A DNA stretch of 64,000 nucleotides, from contig OX031058.1 of the NCBI GenBank assembly GCA_943736015.1, positions 24,081,001-24,145,000 of the forward strand. Direction: 5' to 3'. Positions 4,105 through 44,552 of this stretch are shown here, in pieces. Under the pieces are notes generated by a model. The model saw nothing but the letters and a program-made list of their open reading frames with translations. It had not been told where the DNA came from and searched no databases. Source of the DNA: Tridacna crocea (lineage: Eukaryota; Mollusca; Bivalvia; Cardiida; Cardiidae). Each line of letters opens with the position of its first letter. The first letter of the stretch is position 1. The translations under genes and the position numbers were made by a program.

Positions 4105-4288
4105 GGAGGTTTTTGGAAACATTGTGGGAAAAGAAGAAAATGCTGGTGACTAGAAGAGAAGTCTTTCAGAGAAAGAGATGGCTTTTGAAAACATTGTTGG
4201 AAAAGAAGAAAATGCTTGTGACCAGAAAAGGAGAATTCTTCTGAGAAAAAGACAGCTTTTGAAAACATTGTGGGAAAAGATGGAAATG
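4105..4288 (-). repeat. Tandem half-hairpins of the TTAA MITE
   Basis: Three head-to-tail left arms (4113, 4178, 4258), each GAAAACATTGTGGGAAAAGA or close, about 65-80 bases apart, with no complementary right arms. The last one runs into a SINE. Confidence 0.6.
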
Positions 4289-4425
4289 CTCTGTAGCTCA
4301 GCTGGTAACAACACTTTGAGCAAGCATGTTGCTGGTACAAAATTCCAGCTTGCCAATTTCTCTCAGAGAATTTATGATAGTCACTGCAACAGGATACATT
4401 CCTATCTTGCTTCTGAATAACCTGT
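4289..4425 (+). mobile_element. tRNA-derived SINE (family 3), decayed
   Basis: Box A TAGCTCAGCTGGTAAC, degenerate box B (GCTGGTACAAAATTCC), then TGCCAATTTCTCTCAG and GATAGTCACTGCAACAGGA as in the copy at 60.2 kb. Confidence 0.55.
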
Positions 4426-4575
4426 GTATGATGCCCTAGATGGTTATGTGGGAAAGCAGCCAATGACTTAGGAACACCACAGTGAGAAGTGCTGGAAAAG
4501 AAATGCTGGGAGAGCATGTATAGGTGAAGTGGTTGCAGCTGTGATATCATTGAAAATATTTGAATAGTATCAATT

Positions 4576-4784
4576 CTTAGGCTGTTAAGTGCAACTCAAG
4601 GACCTTTTGCAGACAGTGTTGATCAAGATCAGATTGCACAGAACATGTAGTCTGATCTTTGATCTACACTGTCCAATAACAGCATGTCTAATCCTGAAAA
4701 GAATACCTTTGAAATAGCCAAAGTTTGGTTTTTACTATCAGTTTGAATTTTTCATCTCAGTTACTTAGTAGGATAAGGGTTGAA
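4576..4784. mobile_element. GATCAGAC palindrome element
   Basis: Core pair AGATCAGATTGCACA / TGTAGTCTGATCTTTGATC inside GGCTGTTAAGTGC at the left and GGATAAGGGTTGA at the right. One of the longer copies of the family. Confidence 0.6.
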
Positions 4785-9733: not shown

Positions 9734-11175
9734 TTGTTCACATTTCCTAACAAAATGAAAAAGCCTGAGGAAAGGGAGAAGAGGAAACAGTTAGTCTGTA
9801 GATCAGTTGGTAACAAGCTGTGGTCACCACTGAAGGATAGCCGTGTTTGTTCAATGCATTTTGAAGATGGTGAGCCCACTATTGCCAATCCCTTACCAAC
9901 ACAAAACATGGGTTATGAAGGGGCAAGTGGCCGTGTTAGAAGAATGGTCTTATATGAAGCCACAAGACCAACCCACATTAGGAGACAAGAAAGGTTTTGA
10001 TTCCTAAAAGCCCTGCGAATATCTTGTCAGAGACTCCAGTCTGTGTAGACCCACAGGATGAATTTTTGTCCAGAGAAGAGCCAAAACTCCCTTGGGTAGT
10101 AAACATAATGATTTTGATGCTTATGTTGTGGCAGAAGCTTATAGAAAAGGAAAAGAAGGTGCAAAAACTGTCGGCTGAGAATCAAAGACTGAAAGACACC
10201 ATTCGCCAGTTGAAACGCACAGTTTATACAGACAAAATTTTAAAAACAGACAGTGATGTCAGCTTCCATACTGGGTTGGAAAAGAGAACGATTTTTGCTA
10301 AACTGCACAACAAAATTGCTCCATTTGTTAATAGACGATGGACAGGAGCCAAGTCTGCTCTAAAAACATCTCAAACTCTGCAAAGGTTTTCAGAGATTTG
10401 GACCAGAAAGAAAGATGAATCCTCAAAGTGAGTTCCTGTTGATGCTAATGAAATTACAGCTTGGGCTGTCTTGTGCAGAGATTTAGTCTCTGAGACTTTG
10501 GTGTCAAGAATTTTTTTTGCCTGGCTTCGTGCTTCTTGCGTTATTTTGAAAAGTCTTGTTTACCTTCCAAGCCAAGAAGAGCTGACTGGTTCAAAGCCAG
10601 AGAGATTCAGAAAGTTCCCAGACTTGCATTCAATAATAGATTGCACAGAGTTATTTATTGAAACGCCAAAGGACTTGTCTCTTCAAAGTGGCTCATGGAG
10701 TGACTATAAACACCACAATACATTGAAAATCCTAGTCACTTGTGCACCAAATAGTGCCATAATTTTTGAAAGCCAGGCTTATCTCGGAAGAACCTCGGAT
10801 AAAGCTTTGACATTGGATTGTGGTTTTTTGGACTCGGTCCCATTTAACAGTATGATAATGGCAGATAAGAGCTTCAACATCAACAATGAATGTGCTATAC
10901 GTAACCTGAGGCTCTATGCCCCACCTGGCAAGAGAGGACACTCACAGATGACAAGTGCCAATGTACAAAAAACAAAGCAGATTGCTAACCATAGAATTTT
11001 AATAGAACAAGTAATTAGGCGTCTAATGACATTTAGAATTTTGGCCAATGAGCTCCCTTTATCTTTAATTGGACATGTTGATGAAATGATTAGTGTCTGT
11101 GCAGCCTTGAGTAATTTGAAAGAACCAATTACAAAGTGTAACTTCCATAGAGACAAATGTAAAACGCAGACGTGA
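9734..11175 (+). pseudogene. Broken THAP + DDE_4 transposase (ISL2EU/IS4EU type)
   Basis: Remnant of a DNA transposon transposase in three overlapping frames. The first piece is the C-terminal half of a THAP zinc finger (FTFPNK, LWSPLKDSRVCSMHF, NPLPTQNMGY); the CxxC half is missing, and a possible acceptor (CATTTCAG, ends 9732) suggests it sat in an earlier exon, where a MITE now lies. Next comes a coiled-coil linker (near 10130-10230) and a helix-turn-helix. The last piece, 10471-11175, is a DDE_Tnp_4 catalytic core with D57 (IIDCTE), D132 (MADKSF) and E179 (HRILIEQVIRRL) all kept. Frame changes near 10000 and 10430-10500, including a stop in CAEI-TAG, make it inactive. Typical full-length relatives read through these points. 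Family assignment to ISL2EU is from recall. Confidence 0.85.
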
Positions 11176-16261: not shown

Positions 16262-19010
16262 TTAGTTTTTCCTGCACTGCTTCCCAAAAGTCTGGGTCAA
16301 AGGAAATCCTAACACAAAGGCTTCCATGGTAGGTATATAGATAAAAATCACAAATTCTCTTTTCAAAATTTTCATTTGTCCCTGAATTTGAAAAAAGTAA
16401 GCATGTTTATTACCTAAAATAACTGTACCATCTTTTTCTTGTAAATATGTGACATTGTCAATTGAGGGTACTTGGTCTTTTATGCTTTCTAGGCATTTAA
16501 TCTGACATAGGCCTTTACCACAGCAGTCACATTCTGTTTCTAAATCAGCACTTGCTGCCAAAAATGGCTTGTCACCACTCACTGTCAATCCTGAATCTAT
16601 GACTTTAAACTTTCTGTGCTTCACTTTCATTTCTTTCATGTAACTGGTTTTGGCCTGGGGTGCCAGGGATATTCCATGTTTCATTGCAACTGTCTGTTTT
16701 GTACTTTTTTCTCCCAAAACAGTTTCAATAAGCTTCGAAGAGTCAGCATCTGTCCTTTTTAGCTCACCTGAGCACGAAGTGCTCAAGGTGAGCTATTGTG
16801 ATCGATCAATGTCCGTCGTCCGTCCGTCTATCCGTTACAAAAAAATCTTCTCCTCCTAAACTAATTATCAGATTTCAATCAAACTTCACAGAAATGATCC
16901 CAGGTGATGCACTTTCAAAATACTTCAAAGATTTGAATTCCATGAAGAACTCTGGTTGCCATGGCAACTGAGTTAAAAAAAACTTTAAAAAAATCTTCTT
17001 GTTCAAAACTGTAAGGGCTATAGCTTTCATATTTGGCATGTAGCATCATCTAATGGCCCTTTACCAAAATACTTCAAATCATGGCTCTAGTCTTGAAATT
17101 GGCCCTATGTTGTGGGTTCTCAGATTTTACAGAGAGATAAAGAAGGAAATCTTAGAAAATCTTCTTGTCTCAAACCATAAGGGCTAGAGCTTTCATATTT
17201 GGCATGTAGCATCATCTAGTGACCCTTTACTAAAATAGTTCAAATTATCACCCTAGTGCAGAAATTGGCCCTATGTTGTGGGATCTTGGATTTCACAGAG
17301 AGATAAAGAAGGAAATCTTAGAAAATTTTCTTGTCCCAAACCGTAAGGGCTAGAGCTTTCATATTTGGCATGCAGCATCATCTAGTGGCCCTCTACCAAA
17401 ATACTTCAAATTATGGCCCTGCTGTGAAACTTAAACCTATGTTGTTGGTCTTGGATTTCGCATAGCGATAAAGAAGGAAATCTTTAAAAATCTTTGTCCC
17501 AAACGGTAATGGCCAGAGCTTTCATATTTGGCATGTAGCATCATCTAGTGGCCCTCTACCAATATACCTCAAATTGGCCCTATGTTGTGGGTTCTCGGAT
17601 TTCACATATCAATAAAGAAGGAAATCTTAGAAAGTCTTCTTCTCCCAAACCATAAGGGCTAGAGCTTTCATATTTGGTATGTAGCATCATCTAGTGGCCC
17701 TCTACCAAAATACTTCAAATTATGGTCCTGGTGTGAAAGTTAGCCCTATGTTGTTGGTCTCAGATTTCACATAGAGATAAAGAGGAAAATCTTTAAAAGT
17801 CTTCTTGTCAGCTTTCTTGAGACCACTTTTCTTGCTTAGCTGAATTAAAAATTGGTAAGAATGTCTGTCTCAATAAAATCTCACATGAGTATGCATTGAA
17901 TGCTTGTTCGGAATATAACTTTGTCACCTCAAGTAAGAATGTCTTCAAAATTGGTATGCATGCATGTTTGTTGTGATATTACAGAGTACTGTATTCAAGA
18001 ACAATAACTCAACCTAGCATGGATTTTGAATAATTCCACTTTGATCTTTATTTTAATAGTATTGTTTGCTTGTCCTGAGTGGAATTTTGAAGTCTCAAGT
18101 CAAACTGTTTGTTGCATTGCCTGCCCTTTGCAACTATTATACCTCCTGTACAACTGGCGGTGGGATTGCATATCTTGCGACAATTTGCCACTCTTGTTTC
18201 ATCATTATTAGCCCTTGAACCTCAATATGTGGTAATTATAGTCCTTGTTGTAGACCTTTGCTGCTTAGTGCTCAGGTGAGCGATATAGGACCATCATGGT
18301 CCTCTTGTTCTCATAGTATCCACATGACTACTTACACGTAGGAATATGCTGGCTGTGAGTCTCCCTTTCCGCTGATCTTTCCAAATAAGAGATTTTGACT
18401 GTTGTACAGTTGAATCCTTTAGGGATTGAATCTCCTTTGTAGACAGCTCAATTTTCTTTAAGAAAAACTGCCTCAAACATCCATTTGTTGGCTTTTCTCT
18501 TATCATATTTTTTGATATCTCAATTAAAGAAGGGGGAGATTGACAGTTTTAACTGGTATTCGTTTTTTTTTTTCAAATAATAATGAAAAGCAGGAAGTTT
18601 TTATGTCATCCTTGAGCAAATAATGTAAGTCTTTCCTTAAACTTTCCCTTTCCTGTACCAGCTGGCATTGTTCATTATTAAGAGGAGTGAAGTTTGCCTT
18701 CATGAGCTTCTTTTATATCGTCTTTTACAGTGTTTTTCCCATACCGACCTCTTCCAAACCATCTCGGCAACTTTTAGTGTCTTTAAAACAGGTTTTCCTT
18801 TGGGAACATTCCATGATGATGGTATGCTTGTTTTGGACAGTTTTGTCAGCCCAGTTTTAACAGCATGCTCTATTCTAAACAGGAGACCGGCTACATGGTT
18901 ACATGTACCAAGCATTCCGGCTCTGCAGCTGCAGTATGCTGACAGGATCTTTCCTCCAGGGCCTTCTGATAAGTCCTTCTCGATTATTGCCCATGCTTGA
19001 TAATACTTAT
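16262..19010 (-). pseudogene. SWIM-YqaJ gene of an ISL2EU-type transposon, interrupted
   Basis: Three pieces in order on the minus strand. 19010-18690 holds a SWIM zinc finger, CSCRAGMLGTCNHV (CxC-x7-CxH), and SSWNVPKGK, usual in these proteins. A one-base frame change near 18700 follows. 18530-18310 holds the YqaJ N-terminus (SLIWKDQRKGRLTASIF). 16760-16262 holds the YqaJ core: PFLAASADLE (metal-binding Asp) and CQIKC where the family has EIKC, so the catalytic Glu is replaced by Gln. The break between the last two pieces is a 1.55 kb Helentron-like insertion at 16761-18308; the frame is the same on both sides. YqaJ is a lambda-exonuclease-like nuclease found beside the transposase in these elements. 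Confidence 0.83.
16761..18308 (+). mobile_element. Helentron/'pearl'-like element, inserted in YqaJ
   Basis: Begins AGCTCACCTGAGC, then a CCGT microsatellite (16816-16834) and five tandem units marked by CATATTTGGCATG at 17028, 17194, 17360, 17523 and 17669 (spacing 166, 166, 163, 146). Ends with the hairpin GGACCATCATGGTCC followed by CTCTTGTT. The junctions lie inside a T run, as expected for insertion between two Ts. No coding sequence. Layout matches bivalve pearl elements, considered non-autonomous Helentrons. Confidence 0.8.
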
Positions 19011-27403: not shown

Positions 27404-28384
27404 CTAGAATTTGTGTTTCACCGCAGCCATCATCCACTTTGGAAGACGTACAAACCCAGGAAACAAACGAGCCAGCCGTCTATGTCCCGCTCGGTCAAGG
27501 TGAAACTTTACTGCACGTATATATGTAGGGGAGAAACCTTCTTTATCCTGCAGTCGATACTCTCGACCAAGATCATACGTAAACAGTACTTTACTGGACT
27601 TTTTCATTAGATTACGGTCAACAGCCAATTCCACGATACACTGTCCTGGAAATTCTGCCGATTCTCCACGGTTGAATTCAGTCACTTGTTGTATGTTAAG
27701 ATTACTTTCCCTGCTCACTTTATTGTCCCCGACTCCTGGCATGAAAGTTCCCACCGTCTCCGTCAGTACATATCCAGGCCACAGACTGACAAACGCGACA
27801 TTATGCTTCTTCAGCTCGTACCCACAACCCACTGCCATCCTATCACAAGCTTCTTTCCCGATGCCATAAAGCGCCCCAAAGGTGTAGATGATTCCACCGC
27901 CCGAGGAAATATTAACAATCAGACCCTTTTTCCTGGGGACCATCAGTTTTGCAGCGTATGACGCGCATATGTAATGATCCCGTAAACCTACACGATTCAC
28001 TGTGTCCCAACCGGAAATGGGCTGTTCCCAGAAAGGCACATTTACATTACTAAACACATAATTGATCCCAGAATATGCATTGTTTACAAGAATATCGAGT
28101 TCTCCGTTATTTTCTTCCTTAATCATTTCAAAGAGGCTTTGTATGTCTTCATCGTTTGTGTGATCGCATTGGACAGCCACACAAAAACCTCCCCTTGCAT
28201 TGATTTCATCAGCTGTTTCTCTAAGAGAGCCACACAGTTGCGCGTCTGCTGGAGCATCTAACGTCCGTCCGGTTATATACACTTTACCGCCATTTTCTGC
28301 TAACTGTATCGCAATGCCTTTACCAATGCCTCTCGTTGCCCCGGTAACTAAGCACACTTTTCCGGTCAACTTTCCCGATATCAT
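27404..28384 (-). CDS. DHRS1: DHRS1-like short-chain dehydrogenase/reductase, intronless
   Basis: Complete 326-residue reading frame for a classical SDR oxidoreductase using NAD(P)(H). The Rossmann nucleotide motif TGATRGIG is at residues 14-21, NNAYSG at 101-106, and the catalytic set S160, Y173, K177 (YGIGK) has normal spacing. The NNAY variant of NNAG, the LWPG stretch near 201-204 and the C-terminal LPKWM...KHKF match DHRS1 (usually ~313 aa, endoplasmic reticulum, reduces steroids and carbonyl compounds) better than other SDRs. The start is the first ATG (28382-28384): a GTG-led frame extends 7 codons further, with an in-frame stop at 28445-28447. No splice site interrupts the frame, although vertebrate DHRS1 is multi-exon. 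A diverged MITE ends 47 bases beyond the stop. The family call is firm, orthology to DHRS1 likely; substrate is unknown. Confidence 0.93.
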   Translation of the reverse strand: MISGKLTGKVCLVTGATRGIGKGIAIQLAENGGKVYITGRTLDAPADAQLCGSLRETADEINARGGFCVAVQCDHTNDEDIQSLFEMIKEENNGELDILVNNAYSGINYVFSNVNVPFWEQPISGWDTVNRVGLRDHYICASYAAKLMVPRKKGLIVNISSGGGIIYTFGALYGIGKEACDRMAVGCGYELKKHNVAFVSLWPGYVLTETVGTFMPGVGDNKVSRESNLNIQQVTEFNRGESAEFPGQCIVELAVDRNLMKKSSKVLFTYDLGREYRLQDKEGFSPTYIRAVKFHLDRAGHRRLARLFPGFVRLPKWMMAAVKHKF

Positions 28385-28582
28385 GATATTTGAAAATCGA
28401 AACACAGTATTTACAACAAAATTGAAATAAAGACATTGAATCGTTCAAGCATAACTTGTCCTTTAACCTAACCCATTTACACCTTCAGTGCCAAATATAT
28501 AAACTCGATCTGTGTCATCGGCTGAAAATATAACCAACTCTAACCGAGCAATTTTCTCATTTTCTTGACTTTACTGTAAAAG

Positions 28583-30793: not shown

Positions 30794-31332
30794 TTAAATC
30801 TCCTTTGCACCAAGTTCTTTCAATAGCGTTTCTATTTCCTGCATCAGCGTTTCTTTGTCTTTGTCTGTTGATGTATCAGTGCTTACATTCAAATCAACTG
30901 GAACACTGTTCCTATTTTCCAGACTTTTGATGTCTGCTTCTAACTCTTTGAGTGACCAGTCTACGTCATAACCGGAAGTTGTGCTCGGTTTCTGCCATAC
31001 GTCCCAATAATACTCCGGATTATCTATTTCGTTCGCTATTGTTTCTTGTGCAGGGGCGGAAAAACTTCGGCCATGACGTCTAAAACTTCGTTTCACTTCC
31101 GGCTGTTTTCTTAAGGTTATAGATCTTTGTACAGCTCGTTCTGTTAGTATCTCAAGCTCAGTATTCACAGTATCGAGTTCTAGTTGCATAAACTCCAACT
31201 CCTGATTTAGTCGTACTATTTCTTCGTCTTTTTCTTCGAGTTGTGTATTTTTATCTTTGAGCTGGTGGAAAACTGACAGGAAAACGCTGCTGTCGTAGTC
31301 AGGTCCACTCTCTGGACAATCCTCGTTCTTAT
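30794..31332 (-). CDS. DED gene exon 4, coiled coil and stop
   Basis: Residues 438-616 and the stop codon. It opens with an acidic linker, then about 50 residues of heptads (FHQLKDKNTQLEEKDEEIV onward), a basic patch (RSFRRHGRSF), and a second helical stretch near the C-terminus (LMQEIETLLKELGAKEI). Acceptor CATGTGTAG. No clear AATAAA was seen just downstream. Confidence 0.82.
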
Positions 31333-34300
31333 CTACACATGAAAAAATACTATCAGATTGTTTGGCTCACAAAGAAAGAAAACTGTATACGATTTTAAGG
31401 ATTACAGTCAATATCGTGTAACATCGACCTTTCCGTAAGGTCTATCAAGCTAATTTCGGCAGCTTCCTTCTTTTAATATAAGAGTTAAGGGCCGAAGATC
31501 CACTAACTCATCGGTAAATATCGCGCAACATTGACGTTTTCGTAAAGCCTGTTAAGTACTATTAAAGTAGTAGTATTTTTGTGATTAATCAGAGTTAAAT
31601 CTAATTTCTTCTTAAGTATTGTAAGCCGTGAAGTTCGAAAATTGAGACTAGACAACAAAAACAACATTAGCAGTAATAGTAGCACTAGTGTATGCGTATA
31701 TTCATCAACTTAAGAGGCTCCTAAACTCCAAAGGAACCGCTGACATTGAAAAAGAAAATGACTAAAAGAAAGGTGAATATTGAAATTACTCGATTTGTAT
31801 ATCATTCAATGAACTTCTAGTGCCTTTTCATCAGTATGCTCGTAATATCAAGGCCAACAGTACACTTATTATACACTCTTTCCAGATGTTTCTTCTTTTT
31901 TTCAAGGATAGCACTCTATCTAAGATAGACTTGTCAGTCTGGGTTCCAAAAAATCCTACCTACGATTTATAGAGACCGTGAAAAGAACCGTGGAAAGAGT
32001 AATCAAGAAATTGTTACCGCCTGGGCGGTAGCATGGTTAGACTACAAGCTATTTTCTTATATTAAGAAACCAATGGCGAAAGAGTTGTGTATGTAATACC
32101 AGCTAGAAAAACACCAGGAATGTACATGCACATGTCGCAATGGGGGCAAAACAAGCAAAAAAGCAATATGAACCCCAATACTTACCGACTGAGAAGGTCC
32201 TACCCCGTAACTGAAGAGCATCAATCCCTAGTTGAGCAAACCGTGCAATGTTCGCTTGAAGAATCGCCTCTAGAAGGTTCACATACCGCCTGTGGAACAT
32301 CAGCGTGACAATCACGCTAAAACCTGGTTCAATCCCCACTATGTATACACAATGGGACGGTATGAAGAGCATATTGGCTAGTCCAACTCGCACAGCTTCT
32401 AAGTCGCCTCGTTTTAAGCGTGTGAAGTCTCGTTCTCTAATGTGGCACGTCATGGTATCATAAGATGAAGCTATAAATACATGTAATCATCGAATGAGAA
32501 CAGGTCATTTTTTTCAGCAAGCGCACACAAGAAATAAGATTTGAGATTAAGCACTCCATTCTGTGGTCTAGAAATAGATATGATTGAAAGAGATAGTGAT
32601 TTTCCTAGACAAAATAGCCTTTTCTATATTTTTAACCTTTTGCCAGATAAGCCCTGATTTTTACGGCTCCGAGGTTGAAGGCGTTTGATAACACTGGAAA
32701 AAAGGAGAAAATGCTCATTACAAGCATTTTCACCTTTTTCCAGTGTTTTCCTTCCCTTATAGATAAAAATACCAACTTTGTAGCCACTTTAAATTTGTCG
32801 CCTGCAAATTCTTTCAATTTCAGCAGACCAAAATTACCTCATCTGGTAGAAAGTTGAATAAATCTTGTATGTAACAGCACGGAAAGTAAACAGTGAATAC
32901 GATTTCAAGTTCATTGCTTTTATGAACACTCAAATAAATAAAAACATTTTCTAGCATTTATGTAGCTTTCGATGGTTTCTTAACATTCCCCCCTCCCCTC
33001 CCGCTTTCTCACAGGCTTTCGGATCACTCTGCTTACATAATGGAAATACTCTTAAGGTAAGACCTTTGTAATGGAAAACAGCTATTCCCACTAAAATATC
33101 ATCATGCAAAATTAGCTATAAAGAAAAATGAGTATTATTGAACTACTTTCACCTTTTCATTTTTTTCCATTTTTTCCTTCTTTGAATTATCATTTATAAA
33201 TCTAAAACCGCTATATTCTCAATTGAAAAAGAGACAATAATTACCTCCCTTTTTAGAAAACAAACAAAAGTATCAAAAGATAGTTTCAAGATAGACATAA
33301 ACGGAATTTCTGATCCGTTAGAAATGTGCAAAAATATTATTTTTGCATAAATCTTTCTTTATCCTTATTTAACAACCAATTAGAATTTTTGCCAAATGTT
33401 CACCGGAAGTGCATTACACAGGTCTTACCTTAAAACGTATCTGTTTCATGCGAGCCGTTTGGCTGGCTAAATGGAGTTCTAACAGCTCTAAAAAATGGCT
33501 ACTATAATATTGTATATAACTGTATAGTGAATTGACCCACTGTTTTATTATACAAAGAAATTTCTCGTGATCTGACTGGATAATATGCCCCGATCTTATA
33601 TTATCATGTACACTGGCAAAATCGATGTAGAAGTGGTTTCCCTTTCGGGAGCCCCGTATAATGACCACACTGTCAACACGACAACCAAAATGGCGGCGTC
33701 GACCGAGATTATGCACCAAGCTACATGTTTTAGCACGTATTACCAAGGTTTCATTGGCGTCAGTTCCCTATGATGTCAGTTTTCATTGAATTGGGACACT
33801 CAGACGGGAAATTCTTCTTCGTCAGCGTACTCAATTTCTTTAACCCAAAACAGGTAAAATTCGCTAAACAAACTTCGGAATTATGAAACTTTGTAGGATA
33901 ATAAATTCGTTGTACGGTCAGGTGGCAGGGGACTTGGAAACTTGTTCACGGCTGTGGTGAATCATGTCGCCCCGAGCCGAAGGCCATGACTACTGCACAT
34001 CACACGATCGTTTACCATAACATGAAATGAAACACTAGAGGAAAAAAAAAAGAGACTTTGGAACTTACGTATGTGCTCCTTCGGTGGGTAGAAAAACACT
34101 ACGTCATATTTGTGATGTATGTACAGTGACGCTTTCTGCTGAACTTCCGGTTTGTTCAGGATGCTGACGATTGTTTGAAGGTGAGATAAGTTATCTCGGC
34201 TGATAAGGCTATATTTCCGCAGAAGGTTGAGATAGGTTAGCGGATTGGTCACGTGAATGAGATCTTGTTCGGTCATACAGTCTAGACCTGAAATAAAATG

Positions 34301-37288
34301 TTGAAACGTTTGAGATTATGAGTTTATGCTTTTCACTTCCCATGGCGAATTAAAAAGCGCTATACTCTGGGAAAAGGGGGGTTTACTGCGTCCCGTCATG
34401 GATCATATGGCTTGGAAAAACACGCAAAAAGGGGCATTCGGACATTTGCGTAAAGTATCGTCTCGGATCAGCCTGCGCAGTCCGCGAAGGCTAATCCGAG
34501 ACGCCACTTTCCGTTTTTATGAAATCTTCTGTTTTGCGCAAGTTTACTGTAGTCGTAAAGTACCTTCTCGGATTAGCCTGCGCGGACTGCGCAGGCTGAT
34601 CCGAGACGATATTTTACGCAAATGTCCGAATGCCTCGTGTTGCAAGCCATATCAAGCGAGTTATAGCATAATCATGGACGAAATCCGACTTGTATAAAAA
34701 CCGGCTGAATTTTGAGATAAAATGGTCATTGAACATGCAACATGCAGAAGAAATAAAGTCAACTAAATGTTTCAGACAACGTCACAATGTGCGAACTGCG
34801 CAGGCTGACATAGGTTAATACATTTTGCAAGTGCATTCAATTCTCTTTTCACAGAGCATGACTTAACTCATTACCAAACGACAAAATTCTAGGCTTGTCC
34901 AAATCGAAAGCATTTGCAGACGACAAAATAAAAGTGACTGAAAATTTGAAATTTGTTTTGTGAAGGGTAGAAAACATTGTGGGAAAAGGAGAAAATGCTG
35001 GTTACCAGCATTTTTTCTTTTTTCCCCACAATGTTTTCTAAAGACTTCTTTCTTAGGGTCGTCAAAAGTAGGGATTGTATGGTAATGGGCTAAATAGTTT
35101 TATCAAGTGCTACACACCGCGGACAGTCTGATCTTGAACCAAAATCTTCCAAGTCTTGACCTTGAAATTTTGTACTGGTCCAAATTGAAAATTAATTTTA
35201 CTAAAAGATTGAAATTTGTTCTGGGAGGAGAGAAAAAAATGCGGGAAAAAGGAGAAAATGCTGGTTAACAGCATTTTCTACTTTTCAAACCATGTTTTCA
35301 AAAGGCTTCTTTTTCAGGGTCGTGAAAACCAGGCATTGTTTGGGAAAGGGTTATTAAAGAAGCAAAAACGGTGGTTTCGGAGTAGGTGTGGAGGCACTTT
35401 ATATCCCACAAATTGCAAGCCAAACTAGGTAGTCGTCTATCTAATCGAAGGATTTGCTGTTAGGAAATGTTGGGAAAAAATCAACTTGAGTTTATCGTGC
35501 GGTAAGACTTACCCATGTTTCCCTGTTCAAGATAAGTCAGCACGATAATGTGAAAATCGCTGGATCGTTCTAAACTTGAGGTTTAGGCCTATACACATGC
35601 GCTACAAGTATGTTATCGACCATTTGTTTATGGTGAAAAAGAAAGTCTGTTAGTATTCATACGATAGGAATCCAAAATTGTCATCAAAATTAGTATATGA
35701 TGTTGATTTTATTAAAAAAAAAAACCAACGTGAATCAGACTATACAGAATGACAGAGGTTGAAAGCCAATGGGGATAATTAATCTAAAACTAGACCAGGG
35801 AAAAAGGCTATTGAAATTGTAGGAACTGTTTCCTATAGCATGCATTCTATGAACTGTGGCAGACCTAGCTAGTAGTAGGTTTACAAACCAGCTCTCAAAC
35901 TCGCAGTCTCTACTAAAATTCTTTCTTTGACTAATGTTGTTGCTATTTCAACGGTAATTTTTGGCGAAAAATATGACTTGATCGGAAAGTGTAGGTCACA
36001 AATCAGACTGCGTTCTTTGCAGACTGATCTTGATCTACACTGCCCGCAAAAGGTCAGTTAGTTGTGCTTAGAAGCCTAAGAGTTAAAACACCATCGAAAA
36101 CTGACATACAAACGTTTATTTGTAACTACAATCTTCATGAATTGGTCTGATTATTCTAAAGGGAAATAACCCATTTTCTCTATCTCTTTTAAGCGTGCAG
36201 ATTTCTCTCGTCATTGAAAGTATAACTAAGACCGTTAAAAAGACTTGGGTATTACAGTTTCAGTGCGTGTTTGTTAAAAATATCTCACAATTTACCATGA
36301 AGCCCAAATCAAAGATCGGACTGAGGATTCTATATAGTTTAAATTTGGTCTTTACTGTCCTCAAAAGGCAACAGAATGTTGTCTTTTTCACCTAGAGGCT
36401 GAGACTCTATAACAGAAATCTTGTTACATCAGAAATTTCACTTACACCTTTGTGTGCTATATCACTATACATTTACTCACCTTTTAAAACTGACTTTATG
36501 GCTTCAAACTCTGGTCCAGATATTGCATTAGCGATATCTATAACCAGCTCGTCAAAATCCACATCTGTCGGTTCATCTTCAAATTTAACAGTACCTCCTT
36601 TATCTTCGTAAACTTTCGATGTTTCAATAAGTTTATTCTGCCCTACTTGTTGATGAAAGTTATCTTTCAGCGTTCCTAATTTTTCGGTCATTTGAGCAAC
36701 TGGTTCATTTTGTGTTTCGAGATTTTTTGGCTGCACGGTTGGAGATGTTGGGTTTTCCGGTATTTCATCCACCGAATTTGCTGGAGTTCTACAACCATTT
36801 GGACCATCTTCCATATCCACTATGTTTAAACGCGGTATGTCGATGGGATGACTTTCTAGCTTATCTTTTAATTCATGCAGAATACCAGATGGTAATGTTT
36901 CCACGTTGGTATCATCAATATCTTGAATGTTATTGTTCTCAACGTCAGACAGAGTCTTGTTTCTGCGGGGTATCTTATTGTCTTCTTCTCTTTTCTCCAT
37001 ACTCAGTTCAAACACTTCGTCTTCACCAGATGCCTCAGTGTCAGTGTCTACAGATACAGTGCTTGCCGTTTTCAACGAAACGCTTTTGACGAGAACTGCA
37101 TTCTGAATAAGCACTTCTTCGTTCAGAGGCAGTTGTTGTTTGTAACTGTCTGAACTTGAAGAACTGCTGACATCTCGGTTGAATTCACTTCTTGACAGTT
37201 TGGCTTGTTCTATCAGTATCTCTTCTGTGATGCTTTTGTCTGATATGTATGGTGCTCTGTCAGCGTTTGCACAGTCATTCGATTCCAT
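30794..37288 (-). CDS. Four-exon gene: DED, unknown module and coiled coil
   Basis: Gene model assembled from the minus strand: exons 37288-36481, 34287-34069, 32470-32186 and 31332-30794 (stop). Every junction has GT/AG signals (donors GTGAGT, GTAAGT, GTAAGT; acceptors TTTCAG, TTATAG, TGTAG) and all three introns are phase 1, so the frame stays open for 616 codons. Residues 1-242 are acidic, Ser-rich and disordered. Residues ~243-328 form a six-helix pattern of a death effector domain, with helices ELVIDIANAI, FEAIKSVLK, TYLNLLRKY, DNLSHLQTIVSIL. Residues ~343-437 hold a compact module of unknown family. Residues ~454-506 are a heptad coiled coil with shorter helices after it. DED proteins act as adaptors in caspase and NF-kB type signalling in the cytoplasm; that role is inferred. 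An acceptor (TTTTTTTTCAG, ends 37293) just before the ATG shows another exon lies upstream, so the true N-terminus may be further out. Confidence 0.82.
31333..32185 (-). other. Intron 3 of the DED gene
   Basis: Between donor GTAAGT (32185) and acceptor TGTAG (31333). No repeat family recognised inside; unusually clean for this window. Confidence 0.7.
32186..32470 (-). CDS. DED gene exon 3, unknown compact module
   Basis: Residues 343-437. The pattern is helix (DLEAVRVGLANML), strand (CVYIVGIEPG), strand (SVIVTLMF), helix (VNLLEAILQ), helix (ARFAQLGI), strand (ALQL). I do not recognise the family. It is uncharged in its strands and looks globular, so a protein-binding or small ligand-binding fold is possible. 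Acceptor TTTATAG, donor GTAAGT. Confidence 0.8.
32630..32857 (-). mobile_element. TTAA-hairpin MITE in DED gene intron 2
   Basis: TTAACCTTTTGCC start, hairpin centre TGCTCATTACAAGCA, end GGTAGAAAGTTGA. Confidence 0.68.
33885..33990. mobile_element. Half of the TTGTACGGTCAGG palindrome
   Basis: ATAAATTCGTTGTACGGTCAGG through AATCATGTCGCCCCGAGCCG, the left half of the complete palindrome at 61.7 kb. Lies in DED gene intron 2, about 80 bases from exon 2. Confidence 0.62.
34069..34287 (-). CDS. DED gene exon 2
   Basis: Residues 270-342. Carries DED helices 3-6, ending in KPEVQQKASLYIHH, then a basic/aromatic link (DVVFFYPPKEHI). Acceptor TTTTATTTCAG, donor GTAAGT, both phase 1. The intron to its left holds half of a large palindrome; the intron to its right holds a nested-hairpin element and two MITEs. 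Confidence 0.82.
34416..34643. mobile_element. Nested-hairpin element (GCAACACGCG ends)
   Basis: Both inner hairpins intact (CAGCCTGCGCAGTCCGCGAAGGCTAATC reduced to its parts CAGCCTGCGC / GCGAAGGCTA; TTAGCCTGCGC / GCGCAGGCTGA). Outer ends AACACGCAAAAAGGGGC and inverse. Confidence 0.72.
34863..35093 (+). mobile_element. TTAA-hairpin MITE
   Basis: TTAACTCATTACC to GGTAATGGGCTAA; hairpin complete. The CATTACC end variant is shared with copies at 20.4, 38.2, 41.5 and 50.7 kb. Confidence 0.78.
35164..35354 (+). mobile_element. TTAA-hairpin MITE, left end worn
   Basis: ACTGGTCCAAATTG, hairpin around TGCTGGTTAACAGCA, end GGGAAAGGGTTA. Confidence 0.65.
35982..36086. mobile_element. GATCAGAC palindrome element
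   Basis: CACAAATCAGACTGCG / GCAGACTGATCTTGATC, right flank GGTCAGTTAGTTGTGCTTAG, end AGAGTTAA. Confidence 0.62.
36481..37288 (-). CDS. DED gene exon 1 (as modelled)
   Basis: Codes for residues 1-269: a long polar segment rich in Ser, Glu and Asp with two similar motifs, ITEEILIEQAKL and LNEEVLIQNAVL, then the first two helices of the death effector domain. Ends at donor GTGAGT with one base left over. The exon itself probably begins at 37292 after an acceptor, leaving TAGT before the ATG. Confidence 0.8.
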
Positions 37289-37561
37289 ACTACTGAAAAA
37301 AAATGCAATATTTGTGATAAAGTATAAAAAAGACCTTCTGGCAGAAAATTAGTCGAACAAAAAAAGCAGTGGCTCCGGATTATCAGTCACATTAACAAAC
37401 ATGTTGACAGAAAAGGGACATGGAAAGCTAATCGGATAATAAATAACTTTTAAGAGACTGAATAAATACAGAATAACGAATGTATGTATGAAAAAAAAGA
37501 TAACTGATGAATTTGTGAACTTATGGACGGATAGGCGGACGTACGTACAAAATAACAAACG

Positions 37562-39975: not shown

Positions 39976-40503
39976 AGTTATTTAGCGGGAAAATGTCATG
40001 AATTATTTCTATGGACAGTACAGATCAGGATTAGAAAGTACATTCTGATACGGTATACCATTATAAACCTTCCGATAACTTGCTCGACACTCTGACTTGC
40101 AGTGTTTGAAATCACTCTTTCCTACCGCCCGAAAATATCGATTTGATATTGTTAGTAATGTCTAGAGTCAAGACTATCGAAAGTGATATTGATACGTGAA
40201 TACTTGATTGACTTTGAAACTTACACCTTTGCTATTATTGATTGATCATTCGGGTGGAAAAATGAAATATTTTGACGACTTTTAAAACTAAATTAATACA
40301 TCTTTAAACAACTAACCTTGGAGAATCAAAAGATGTATGTGCCTCCACCGAAAATATCTTTTTAAAATTGTGGGAAAGATTAAGATATGGTCATTTTTCC
40401 GCATTGTTTTAAATGTCATCTATAAGAATGATAATAAAGGATGATTTAAGACTGATACAGAGATATATACATGTAAATATACTAAACGAATAGGTTGCAT
40501 TGT
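39976..40503. other. No gene or repeat recognised
   Basis: Unremarkable AT-rich sequence leading to the GTAG array. Confidence 0.35.
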
Positions 40504-41223
40504 AGGTAGGTAAGTAGGTAGGTAGGTAGGTAGACAGGTAAATAGGTAGGTAGGTAGAGGAAAGTATGCAGGTAGGTAGGTAGTAGGTAGGTAGGTAGTA
40601 GGTAGGTAGGCATGTAAGTAGGTAGGTAGTAGATAGGTAGGTAGAGAAAGGTATGCAGGTAGGTAGGTAGGTACGTAGGTAGGTAGGTAGGTAGGTAGGT
40701 AGAGGTAAGTAGGTAGGTAGGTAGGTAGGTACGTAGGTAGGTAGGTAGAGGTACGTAGGTAGGTAGGTAGGTAGGTAAGTAGAGGTACGTAGGTAGGTAG
40801 GTACGTAGGTAGAGGTAGGTAGGTAGGTAGGCAGGCAGGTAGGTAGGGGTAGGTAGGTAGGTAGATAGGTAGGTAGAGGTACGTAGGTAGGTAGGTAGGT
40901 AGGTAAGTAGAGGTACGTAGGTAGGTAGGTACGTAGGTAGGTAGGTAGGGGTAGGTAGGTAGGGGTAGGTAGGTAGGTAGATAGGTAGATAGAGGTAGGT
41001 AGGTAAGTAGAGGTAGGTAGGTAGGTAGATAGGTAGAGGTAGGTAGGTAAGTAGAGGTAGGTAGGTAGGTAGATAGGTAGGTAGAGGTAGGTAGGTAAGT
41101 AGAGGTAGGTAGGTAGGTAGGTAGGTAGGTAAGTAGAGGTAGGTAGGTAGGTAGGCAGGTAGGTAGATAGGTAGGTAGGTAGGTAGGTATGTAGGTAGGT
41201 AGTAGGTAGGTAGGTAGGTGGGT
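40504..41223. repeat. (GTAG)n array, 720 bp
   Basis: Tetranucleotide array with higher-order variants: GTAGAGGTAC/GTAGAGGTAG blocks recur every 40-60 bases. Long open frames read from it (YLPT repeats on the minus strand) are not genes. Confidence 0.95.
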
Positions 41224-41463
41224 GGACAAACAGATAGACAAATGGACAGACCTCTTTCCTGTTTTTAAATTGTTTCCCGTTTGCGATCACCGGTGCTGAT
41301 ATTGTGTAGGATGTTTTTATTTGTTTGAATGACAATATCTTAATCCTTAATATTGCCGTCCGAATTAACTTCCAGTTTTCGTCTATAGGAAAAAGAAGGG
41401 ACATTATGCTTTTTGCCCCGTTTTCCATCTTTTTCGATTCCAGGGCTCGTTTCACCAACCATT

Positions 41464-41682
41464 TTAACTCATTACCAAACGACACAATTTTACATGTGTC
41501 CAAATCGAAAGCATTTGCAGACGACAAAATAAAAGCGACCGAAAATTTGAAATTTGTTTTGTGAAGGGTAGAAAACATTGTGGAAAAAGGAGATTACCAG
41601 ATTTTCTCCTTTTCCCATAATGTTTTCTATAGGTTTCTTTTCCAGGGGCGTCAAAAGTAGGGATTGCGTGGTAATGGGTTAA
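41464..41682 (+). mobile_element. TTAA-hairpin MITE
   Basis: TTAACTCATTACC to GGTAATGGGTTAA; the hairpin tip is deleted (AAAGGAGATTACCAGATTTT). Confidence 0.75.
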
Positions 41683-43813: not shown

Positions 43814-44473
43814 CTACAGTTTCTTGACATAAATTTTCGTTGACAGATTATCACCCGTGTTGGTAAAGACTACTTCACCGTTTATCCTGTAATCACTGTA
43901 CAGTACTGTATGTAGCGTTTCGAATCCAAACTTGTCGTATATTCTCTGGGAAGAAACCGATGTTCCCTCGCCAGTTACACACACAGGATCGAGTCCGAGC
44001 TCCTTAGAAAAGGCAATTGCTGCTTTCATCAATTTTGAAGCCGCACCCTGTCCCCTAAAGTCTTTATGAACACACAGAGCCAAGAAATGCACAGCTACGT
44101 CTACGTCATATCTCTGAAAAACGTCCATTTCATCTGATTTGTGTGACAGAAATCGATTTATAGCTATAAACTTTTTGTTGGTATGCTTGGAAGGGTCGAA
44201 TCTTTTACCTCTCTCGGCAAGGCCGATAATCCTGACGCCGATTATCTCGCTTGTAGTATCTGAGATTAATAATACAGAAAGGTCATCCTTCAACTTTTTC
44301 AACCAAGTTTGATAAAGTTCCTCGTCGAAATTAATTTGTATAGATTTACAAAGAGTTTCGTCCGGATAAAAATGGTATTTTAAAAATCCAATCATCTCCG
44401 GCCGTCTGGTTTCACTTGCTAGTTCCAAATGAGCACCTTGAAACACGATATCGGCTGTACACGTTTTGAAAGC
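43814..44473 (-). CDS. GNAT N-acetyltransferase, terminal exon (AANAT-like)
   Basis: 219 codons plus stop of an acetyl-CoA-dependent N-acetyltransferase. Motif A is present: strand VHFLALCV, then DFRGQGAASKL, the RxxGxA pyrophosphate loop, at exon residues 138-148; motif B follows as QRIYDKFGFET. The N-terminal HFYPDETLCKSI is typical of the arylalkylamine/dopamine N-acetyltransferase-like group of invertebrates. The open frame would start with MFLFQ, but those codons are an intron end (TTTTTATTTCAG, ends 44474), so translation begins in an upstream exon, joined in phase 0. That exon was not identified with confidence; the missing part is short. Substrate (biogenic amine, polyamine or other) cannot be told. 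Confidence 0.85.
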   Translation of the reverse strand, partial: AFKTCTADIVFQGAHLELASETRRPEMIGFLKYHFYPDETLCKSIQINFDEELYQTWLKKLKDDLSVLLISDTTSEIIGVRIIGLAERGKRFDPSKHTNKKFIAINRFLSHKSDEMDVFQRYDVDVAVHFLALCVHKDFRGQGAASKLMKAAIAFSKELGLDPVCVTGEGTSVSSQRIYDKFGFETLHTVLYSDYRINGEVVFTNTGDNLSTKIYVKKL

Positions 44474-44552
44474 CTGAAATAAAAACATGTGATGTTGAAC
44501 CCATTACTCCACGATCATTACTGTTAAAGCTTGTTGGCTTTTGCAAATATCA

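Follow-up and report, generated by a model that had tools for sequence, protein, structure and literature searches.

A Tridacna crocea gene for a predicted adaptor with a DED, an NCOA6-clade TRADD-N domain and a coiled coil

Bivalves, amphioxus and cnidarians are described in the main text of Kaur and colleagues as having TRADD-N domains of the NCOA6 clade that adjoin DEDs; in a sponge, domains of this clade adjoin death-fold domains (Kaur et al., 2021; PMC8195603). Pairs of DED and NCOA6-clade TRADD-N have expanded in bivalves and are linked to domains of immunity and apoptosis; in other molluscs, the NCOA6 orthologue is reported as the only member of the clade (Kaur et al., 2021). NCOA6 itself is a single-copy transcription coactivator, with TRADD-N as its sole recognisable globular domain in most animals. 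It has further been proposed that a TRADD-N domain placed between two parts of a protein acts as a switch, with a serine mediating passage between inactive and recruiting states (Kaur et al., 2021). A 64,000-nt stretch of the Tridacna crocea genome (contig OX031058.1, positions 24,081,001-24,145,000 of the forward strand; GCA_943736015.1), referred to below as the window, carries on its minus strand a four-exon gene that we place among these immune adaptors, a class already predicted in marine invertebrates. The best explanation, to which a probability of about 75% is given as a whole, is that the gene encodes a 616-residue DED-TRADD-N adaptor of the NCOA6 clade with a coiled-coil C-terminus and is one of a small set of paralogues. 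The identity of the product is close to certain; a role in immunity or cell death is probable, and we infer from its domains that it would act as a death-fold adaptor.

The module encoded by exon 3 had been set apart in a preliminary description, made from the nucleotide letters, as a compact unit, possibly a new domain tied to death-fold signalling in molluscs. The module does stand apart, on an exon of its own, and its link to death-fold signalling was rightly seen; the novelty did not survive comparison. By its sequence, the module is assigned to TRADD-N, as a diverged domain whose closest counterpart is the one in NCOA6. A search of the same genome (1.05 Gb, 31 contigs) with the exon 3 product gave five matches: the module itself, two copies on contig C6 (E 4.7e-9 and 5.8e-9; 28% identity), one on C5 (E 0.178; 23%) and one on C16 (E 3.44). 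The C16 row and further rows on C12 (E 7.03) and at 2.29 Mb on C2 (E 1.81) were set aside because they were dissimilar or interrupted by stops. An alignment of the three paralogous modules (window, C6 and C5) was used as the query of a profile-profile comparison with the genome's own NCOA6 exon, which was found on C4 at 98.1 bits and whose domain scores 95.4 bits against PF13820, the NCOA6 TRADD-N family. The two profiles matched over 54 columns with a probability of 96.0 (E 4.5e-9), against 0.9%, 0.4% and 0.1% for three unrelated window proteins taken as controls (a GNAT acetyltransferase, a short-chain dehydrogenase (SDR) and a transposase, respectively).

Pairwise comparisons agree with this assignment. 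When Smith-Waterman scores were set against 1000 shuffles, the score of the window module with NCOA6, with C5 and with C6 was in each case reached by 0/1000; the corresponding counts were 1/1000 for C6 with NCOA6, 0/1000 for C5 with NCOA6 and 3/1000 for C6 with C5. The window module also found NCOA6 by BLASTP at E 6e-5 and the C5 module at E 7e-8. Up to E 10, Pfam listed a single family for the window module taken by itself, PF13820 (E 0.039, 14.2 bits). Similarly, the cut-out C6 module listed only PF20694, TRADD-like_N (E 0.17), and the cut-out C5 module listed PF20694 (E 0.0059), PF13820 (E 0.026) and nothing else.

A serine between strands 2 and 3 is a published hallmark of TRADD-N domains. 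It is present here (S51 of the exon product, S394 of the protein) and is invariant in all four aligned modules, that of the genome's own NCOA6 included. In the AlphaFold2 model, predicted from the single sequence, the module folds as beta-alpha-beta-beta-alpha-beta (E3-10, H20-34, E39-47, E50-59, H60-72, H74-79, E82-87, E90-93), and the serine lies at the beta2-beta3 turn, at the start of strand 3. The GxEPGxSVIVTL strand pair noticed earlier is this very turn. Solved folds of the ferredoxin/ACT-like kind, with ACT and S6 folds present, are among the structural matches of the model. A profile search and a structure prediction had been put forward as checks on the DED region and the module; for the module, a compact fold, here predicted to be RRM/ACT-like, was borne out, and the suggestion of a new domain gave way to TRADD-N.

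Several observations tell against the TRADD-N assignment. The window module alone stays under the curated PF13820 cut-off of 22.5 bits, a Pfam scan of the whole 616-residue protein listed nine families, none of them TRADD-N, and a scan of the 148-residue open frame that contains the C6 module listed no TRADD-N family either. BLASTP gave no meaningful match of the C6 module to NCOA6. The structural model is of middling confidence (pLDDT 71.2, pTM 0.57; 71 to 41 across the five models), and no TRADD structure stood among the matches listed by Foldseek or a second aligner, an absence that excludes nothing. Further, the residue before S394 is a phenylalanine and not the tiny residue usual in TRADD-N. 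It is serine in C6 and asparagine in both C5 and NCOA6, thus tiny in only one of the four; since the genome's own NCOA6 also lacks it, this residue does not separate members from non-members here. No solved relative of the module was convincing by sequence (best E 0.92 and 0.67), none of the three modules had an NCBIfam match up to E 1, and among viral contigs 20 stretches matched a pattern and 0 encoded a relative.

The sub-threshold single-sequence scores, the silence of the whole-protein scan on TRADD-N, the lack of a sequence relative among solved structures and the lack of similarity to another TRADD-N protein of the genome, described below, are what speaks for a new domain that shares with TRADD-N only a common ferredoxin-like shape. 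Such a reading is very improbable, because the resemblance to NCOA6 is one of sequence as well as shape, extends over the 54 aligned columns and is not equalled by any shuffle, and because the three cut-out modules list TRADD-N models and no other family.

The genome also contains, on C2 (17427000-17436900, at 4111-4683), a protein with a PF20694 match of 17.7 bits that we take to be DEDD-like, a label that leans in part on vertebrate DEDD. Placement of the window module in the DEDD2 clade was considered and rejected, as the module has no detectable similarity to this protein: its profile-profile probability is 0.2% as against 96.0 for NCOA6, and 736/1000 shuffles reach the Smith-Waterman score. 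DEDD and DEDD2 share with the window protein the order DED then TRADD-N (Kaur et al., 2021).

The gene model itself, as first drawn with four exons and phase-1 introns, is confirmed to the base by sequence evidence. Joined, the four exons read through 616 residues to a stop with zero internal stops, and the three introns (2193, 1598 and 853 bases) all have GT-AG borders and lie in phase 1. Across the joined exons, G+C at codon positions 1, 2 and 3 is 0.538, 0.329 and 0.384, differing among positions as in coding sequence; overall it is 0.40-0.47 in exons as against 0.36-0.38 in introns. The N-terminus is acidic and of low complexity, as had been described, with 20% D/E, 38% S/T/N/Q/P/G and 26% hydrophobic residues over positions 1-240; in the Pfam scan of the whole protein, residues 38-131 gave a weak match to PF16001, DUF4775 (E 0.0056), under the cut-off of that family. 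An acceptor-like TTTTTTTCAG at 37289-37302, four bases upstream of the ATG, suggests that exon 1 is preceded by a further, untranslated exon. Intron 1 holds two short repeat families, at 34863-35094 and 34419-34652, one of which occurs throughout the window in dozens of partial copies; the second matches its own reverse complement and has several copies at 57.2-58.0 kb.

The paralogues supply independent support for this model, since their exon borders and phases are the same. At C6 33609000-33648800, all four exons are present with borders and phases as in the window gene. A DED exon lies upstream of the module (40.6 bits, over the curated PF01335 cut-off of 35.9 bits), with an exon bearing the DED start further upstream; a coiled-coil exon lies downstream. 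All of these borders have canonical donor and acceptor sequences and fall in phase 1. Once its exons are joined, the C6 protein reaches 54.3 bits with the DED family and 18.4 bits with PF20694 (E 0.002). On C5, a DED exon (23.7 bits), a module exon and a last exon ending in a stop were found; the last two introns and the acceptor of the first match those of the window gene, all in phase 1, and the last exon starts with ATAAGAA after its acceptor, as does exon 4 of the window. A search with a two-sequence profile did not find exon 1 of the C5 gene, and when joined without it the C5 protein reaches 19 bits for DED and 15.9 bits for PF20694 (E 0.011). At least three DED-TRADD-N loci (the window, one on C6 and one on C5) are present in addition to the second C6 module copy, a count that is a lower bound as it derives from one query sequence. 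That second copy lies about 144 kb from the first, shares 8.2 kb with it at 98% and is either a recent duplicate or a second haplotype.

An assembly by chance, or one that has decayed (a pseudogene, or exons taken from different genes), could be suspected from repeats in introns 1 and 2 that also occur elsewhere in the window. It is the least credible of the alternatives. The frame is open throughout, with consensus splice sites and codon-position bias, and the same exon order and phases recur in paralogues whose modules are only 28% and 23% identical to that of the window; frames kept open over such divergence make selection likely.

Two details of the C6 paralogue were observed besides. Its C-terminus is longer than that of the window protein, its fourth exon ending in a donor. 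The intron between its DED and TRADD-N exons holds, at C6 33626469-33629694, frames which we take, by eye, to resemble a retroelement. Retrotransposons have been noted near TRADD-N genes of the other clade (Kaur et al., 2021).

The DED was correctly recognised at the outset, and is borne out both by a PF01335 match in the window and by the score of the joined C6 protein. In the window protein, residues 245-321 match the family at 20 bits within the whole protein and at 24.4 bits (E 3.5e-5; profile positions 1-75 of 82) when the region is taken alone. Exon 2 by itself reaches 14.8 bits, and the rise to 24.4 bits on joining the end of exon 1 supports the junction 36481/34287. All five sequences of solved structures matched by this DED are of PEA-15 (E 0.0023 to 0.0048).

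Here too there are results that the proposed reading has to bear. The window DED lies below its Pfam cut-off, and when the genome was scanned in six frames with the DED family profile, 18 matches were listed, six of them over the cut-off, none of which was the split DED of the window. The RxDL motif marks the assembly surface of chain-forming DEDs, though not of all members. A pattern search of the window protein found no RxDL in its DED, so that ordinary DED chain assembly is not assured; the sole match in the protein, at residue 363, falls inside the TRADD-N module. Where the C6 paralogue has RADL, a form of the motif, the window DED has KPEV, and the C5 DED is also without RxDL.

The missing motif makes a decoy role possible. 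The protein would then be an inhibitor like c-FLIP or PEA-15, its changed DED assembly surface capping chains while TRADD-N and the coiled coil tether it elsewhere. The KPEV in place of RADL, the displaced RxDL match and the uniform PEA-15 matches all favour this role. However, those matches are weak and of sequence only, and a lost motif may equally mean a different partner. We regard the decoy as unlikely and favour the DED-TRADD-N adaptor. PEA-15 itself, the sole molecule matched among solved structures, is a DED with a short tail and has no TRADD-N. Elsewhere in the genome, DED exons over the Pfam cut-off occur on C18, C4 and C6, and clusters of at least two DED matches within a few kb, some of them weak, were seen at C18 2.756-2.759 Mb, C4 9.542-9.550 Mb and C1 55.379-55.381 Mb, as expected for tandem-DED proteins or for split DED exons of caspase-8/FLIP homologues.

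The coiled coil was likewise anticipated, and its heptad score in the window gene, 0.74, is reached by only 2/300 shuffles of exon 4. The scores of the paralogues are 0.68 on C5 (2/300) and 0.60 on C6 (17/300); as controls, the TRADD-N exon and part of the SDR neighbour each score 0.40, reached by 81/300 and 228/300 shuffles, respectively. These values support the view that all three genes end in exons predicted to be coiled-coil-like. Similarity among the three segments was scored against 2000 shuffles. It is clear between C6 and C5 (0/2000; 4/2000 with heptads kept). It is modest between the window and C6 (19/2000; 85/2000 with heptads kept) and not significant between the window and C5 (271/2000; 484/2000 with heptads kept), and these two results weigh against the best explanation. 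An unrelated transposon coiled coil of the window, used as a control, gave 970, 73 and 686/2000 with the window, C6 and C5 segments, respectively. From the positions of the exons, the coiled coil is likely to be one inherited segment across the three genes, although its sequence is no proof of this.

Downstream of the coiled coil, the sequence RSFSAP fits the mode-1 14-3-3 motif and is a possible phosphorylation switch. The match is weak: seven patterns were tried, and 27/1000 shuffles of the protein contain at least one occurrence of this one. Patterns for TRAF2, TRAF6 and caspase sites were no more frequent in the window protein than in shuffles.

The preliminary description knew of no standard family with this domain order. 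A DED followed by TRADD-N has, however, already been published, bivalves included (Kaur et al., 2021), and thus the question of the module is answered and the gene placed in a known class. With the proteins presented in the main text of that paper, the window protein shares a DED directly before an NCOA6-clade TRADD-N domain, the middle position of TRADD-N, a variable C-terminus and occurrence in several copies per genome. It differs in its coiled-coil C-terminus and long acidic N-terminus, in showing no receptor, HEPN or propeller part in Pfam, and in the few copies found here, itself a minimum. The main text of Kaur and colleagues does not name a coiled coil among the C-terminal partners, and its one use of 'coiled' concerns RNA polymerase; the coiled-coil ending may be new.

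The nearness of the module to the TRADD-N of a transcription coactivator also raises the case of a nuclear co-regulator, similar to NCOA6 and DEDD/DEDD2, in place of a cytosolic cell-death adaptor. This is quite improbable, since in most animals no globular domain other than TRADD-N is recognisable in NCOA6, and the DED-TRADD-N pairs of its clade are coupled to immune and apoptotic domains (Kaur et al., 2021). Vertebrate TRADD is a further point of comparison, as it couples TRADD-N to a death-fold domain and has the serine at the beta2-beta3 turn; in TRADD, however, TRADD-N comes first and the death domain after, and the partner is TRAF2 (Kaur et al., 2021).

As an adaptor, the protein could work as follows. 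The coiled coil would bring chains together, and this clustering would line up the DEDs, which could then recruit or cap other DED proteins. TRADD-N, between DED and coiled coil, may offer a contact surface that keeps the flanking parts separate or recruits another partner, much as the serine of vertebrate TRADD does for TRAF2. Regulation might act through the long acidic tail and the RSFSAP site. In such detail the mechanism is tentative, its chances being somewhat below even. A more far-reaching proposal is that the window, C6 and C5 genes form a distinct phase-1-exon subfamily of soluble DED-TRADD-N-coiled coil adaptors. Oligomeric state would be determined by the coiled coil, and TRADD-N would act as the switch; with RxDL gone from two of the three DEDs, the members would extend from nucleators (C6) to caps (window and C5) of one death-fold platform. 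We consider this proposal doubtful. The simple four-exon form, free of large sensor or effector parts, would make the protein tractable for testing the published TRADD-N switch idea.

Features of the window gene, with positions counted from the first nucleotide of the window
Feature	Position	Strand	Description
Exon 1	36481..37288	-	ATG; acidic low-complexity N-terminus (residues 1-~240); first part of DED; phase-1 donor GTGAGT
Exon 2	34069..34287	-	remaining DED (to ~residue 321, base 34133) and linker; phase 1 at both ends
Exon 3	32186..32470	-	assigned TRADD-N domain (NCOA6 clade), residues 344-437; phase 1 at both ends; S394
Exon 4	30794..31332	-	coiled coil, basic/serine stretch, C-terminus, stop
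DED first part	36481..36556	-	residue 245 to end of exon 1; counterpart at the end of exon 1 in the C6 paralogue
Coiled coil	31145..31249	-	residues 466-500; a/d positions L K I L L M L V L L
RSFSAP	31052..31069	-	residues 526-531; one match to the mode-1 14-3-3 motif

Other features lie around the gene in the window. Open frames for the short-chain dehydrogenase (27404-28444, minus strand; 105.5 bits) and the GNAT acetyltransferase (43814-44503, minus strand; 38 bits) flank it. A DDE_Tnp_4 transposase (9982-11175, plus strand; 142.7 bits), with a coiled-coil-like frame ahead of it, and a YqaJ-like frame (16262-16792, minus strand; 36 bits) are probably remains of mobile elements. Frames of a Tyr-Leu-Pro-Thr repeat at 40409-41593 are open in three minus-strand frames and represent a microsatellite, not a gene.

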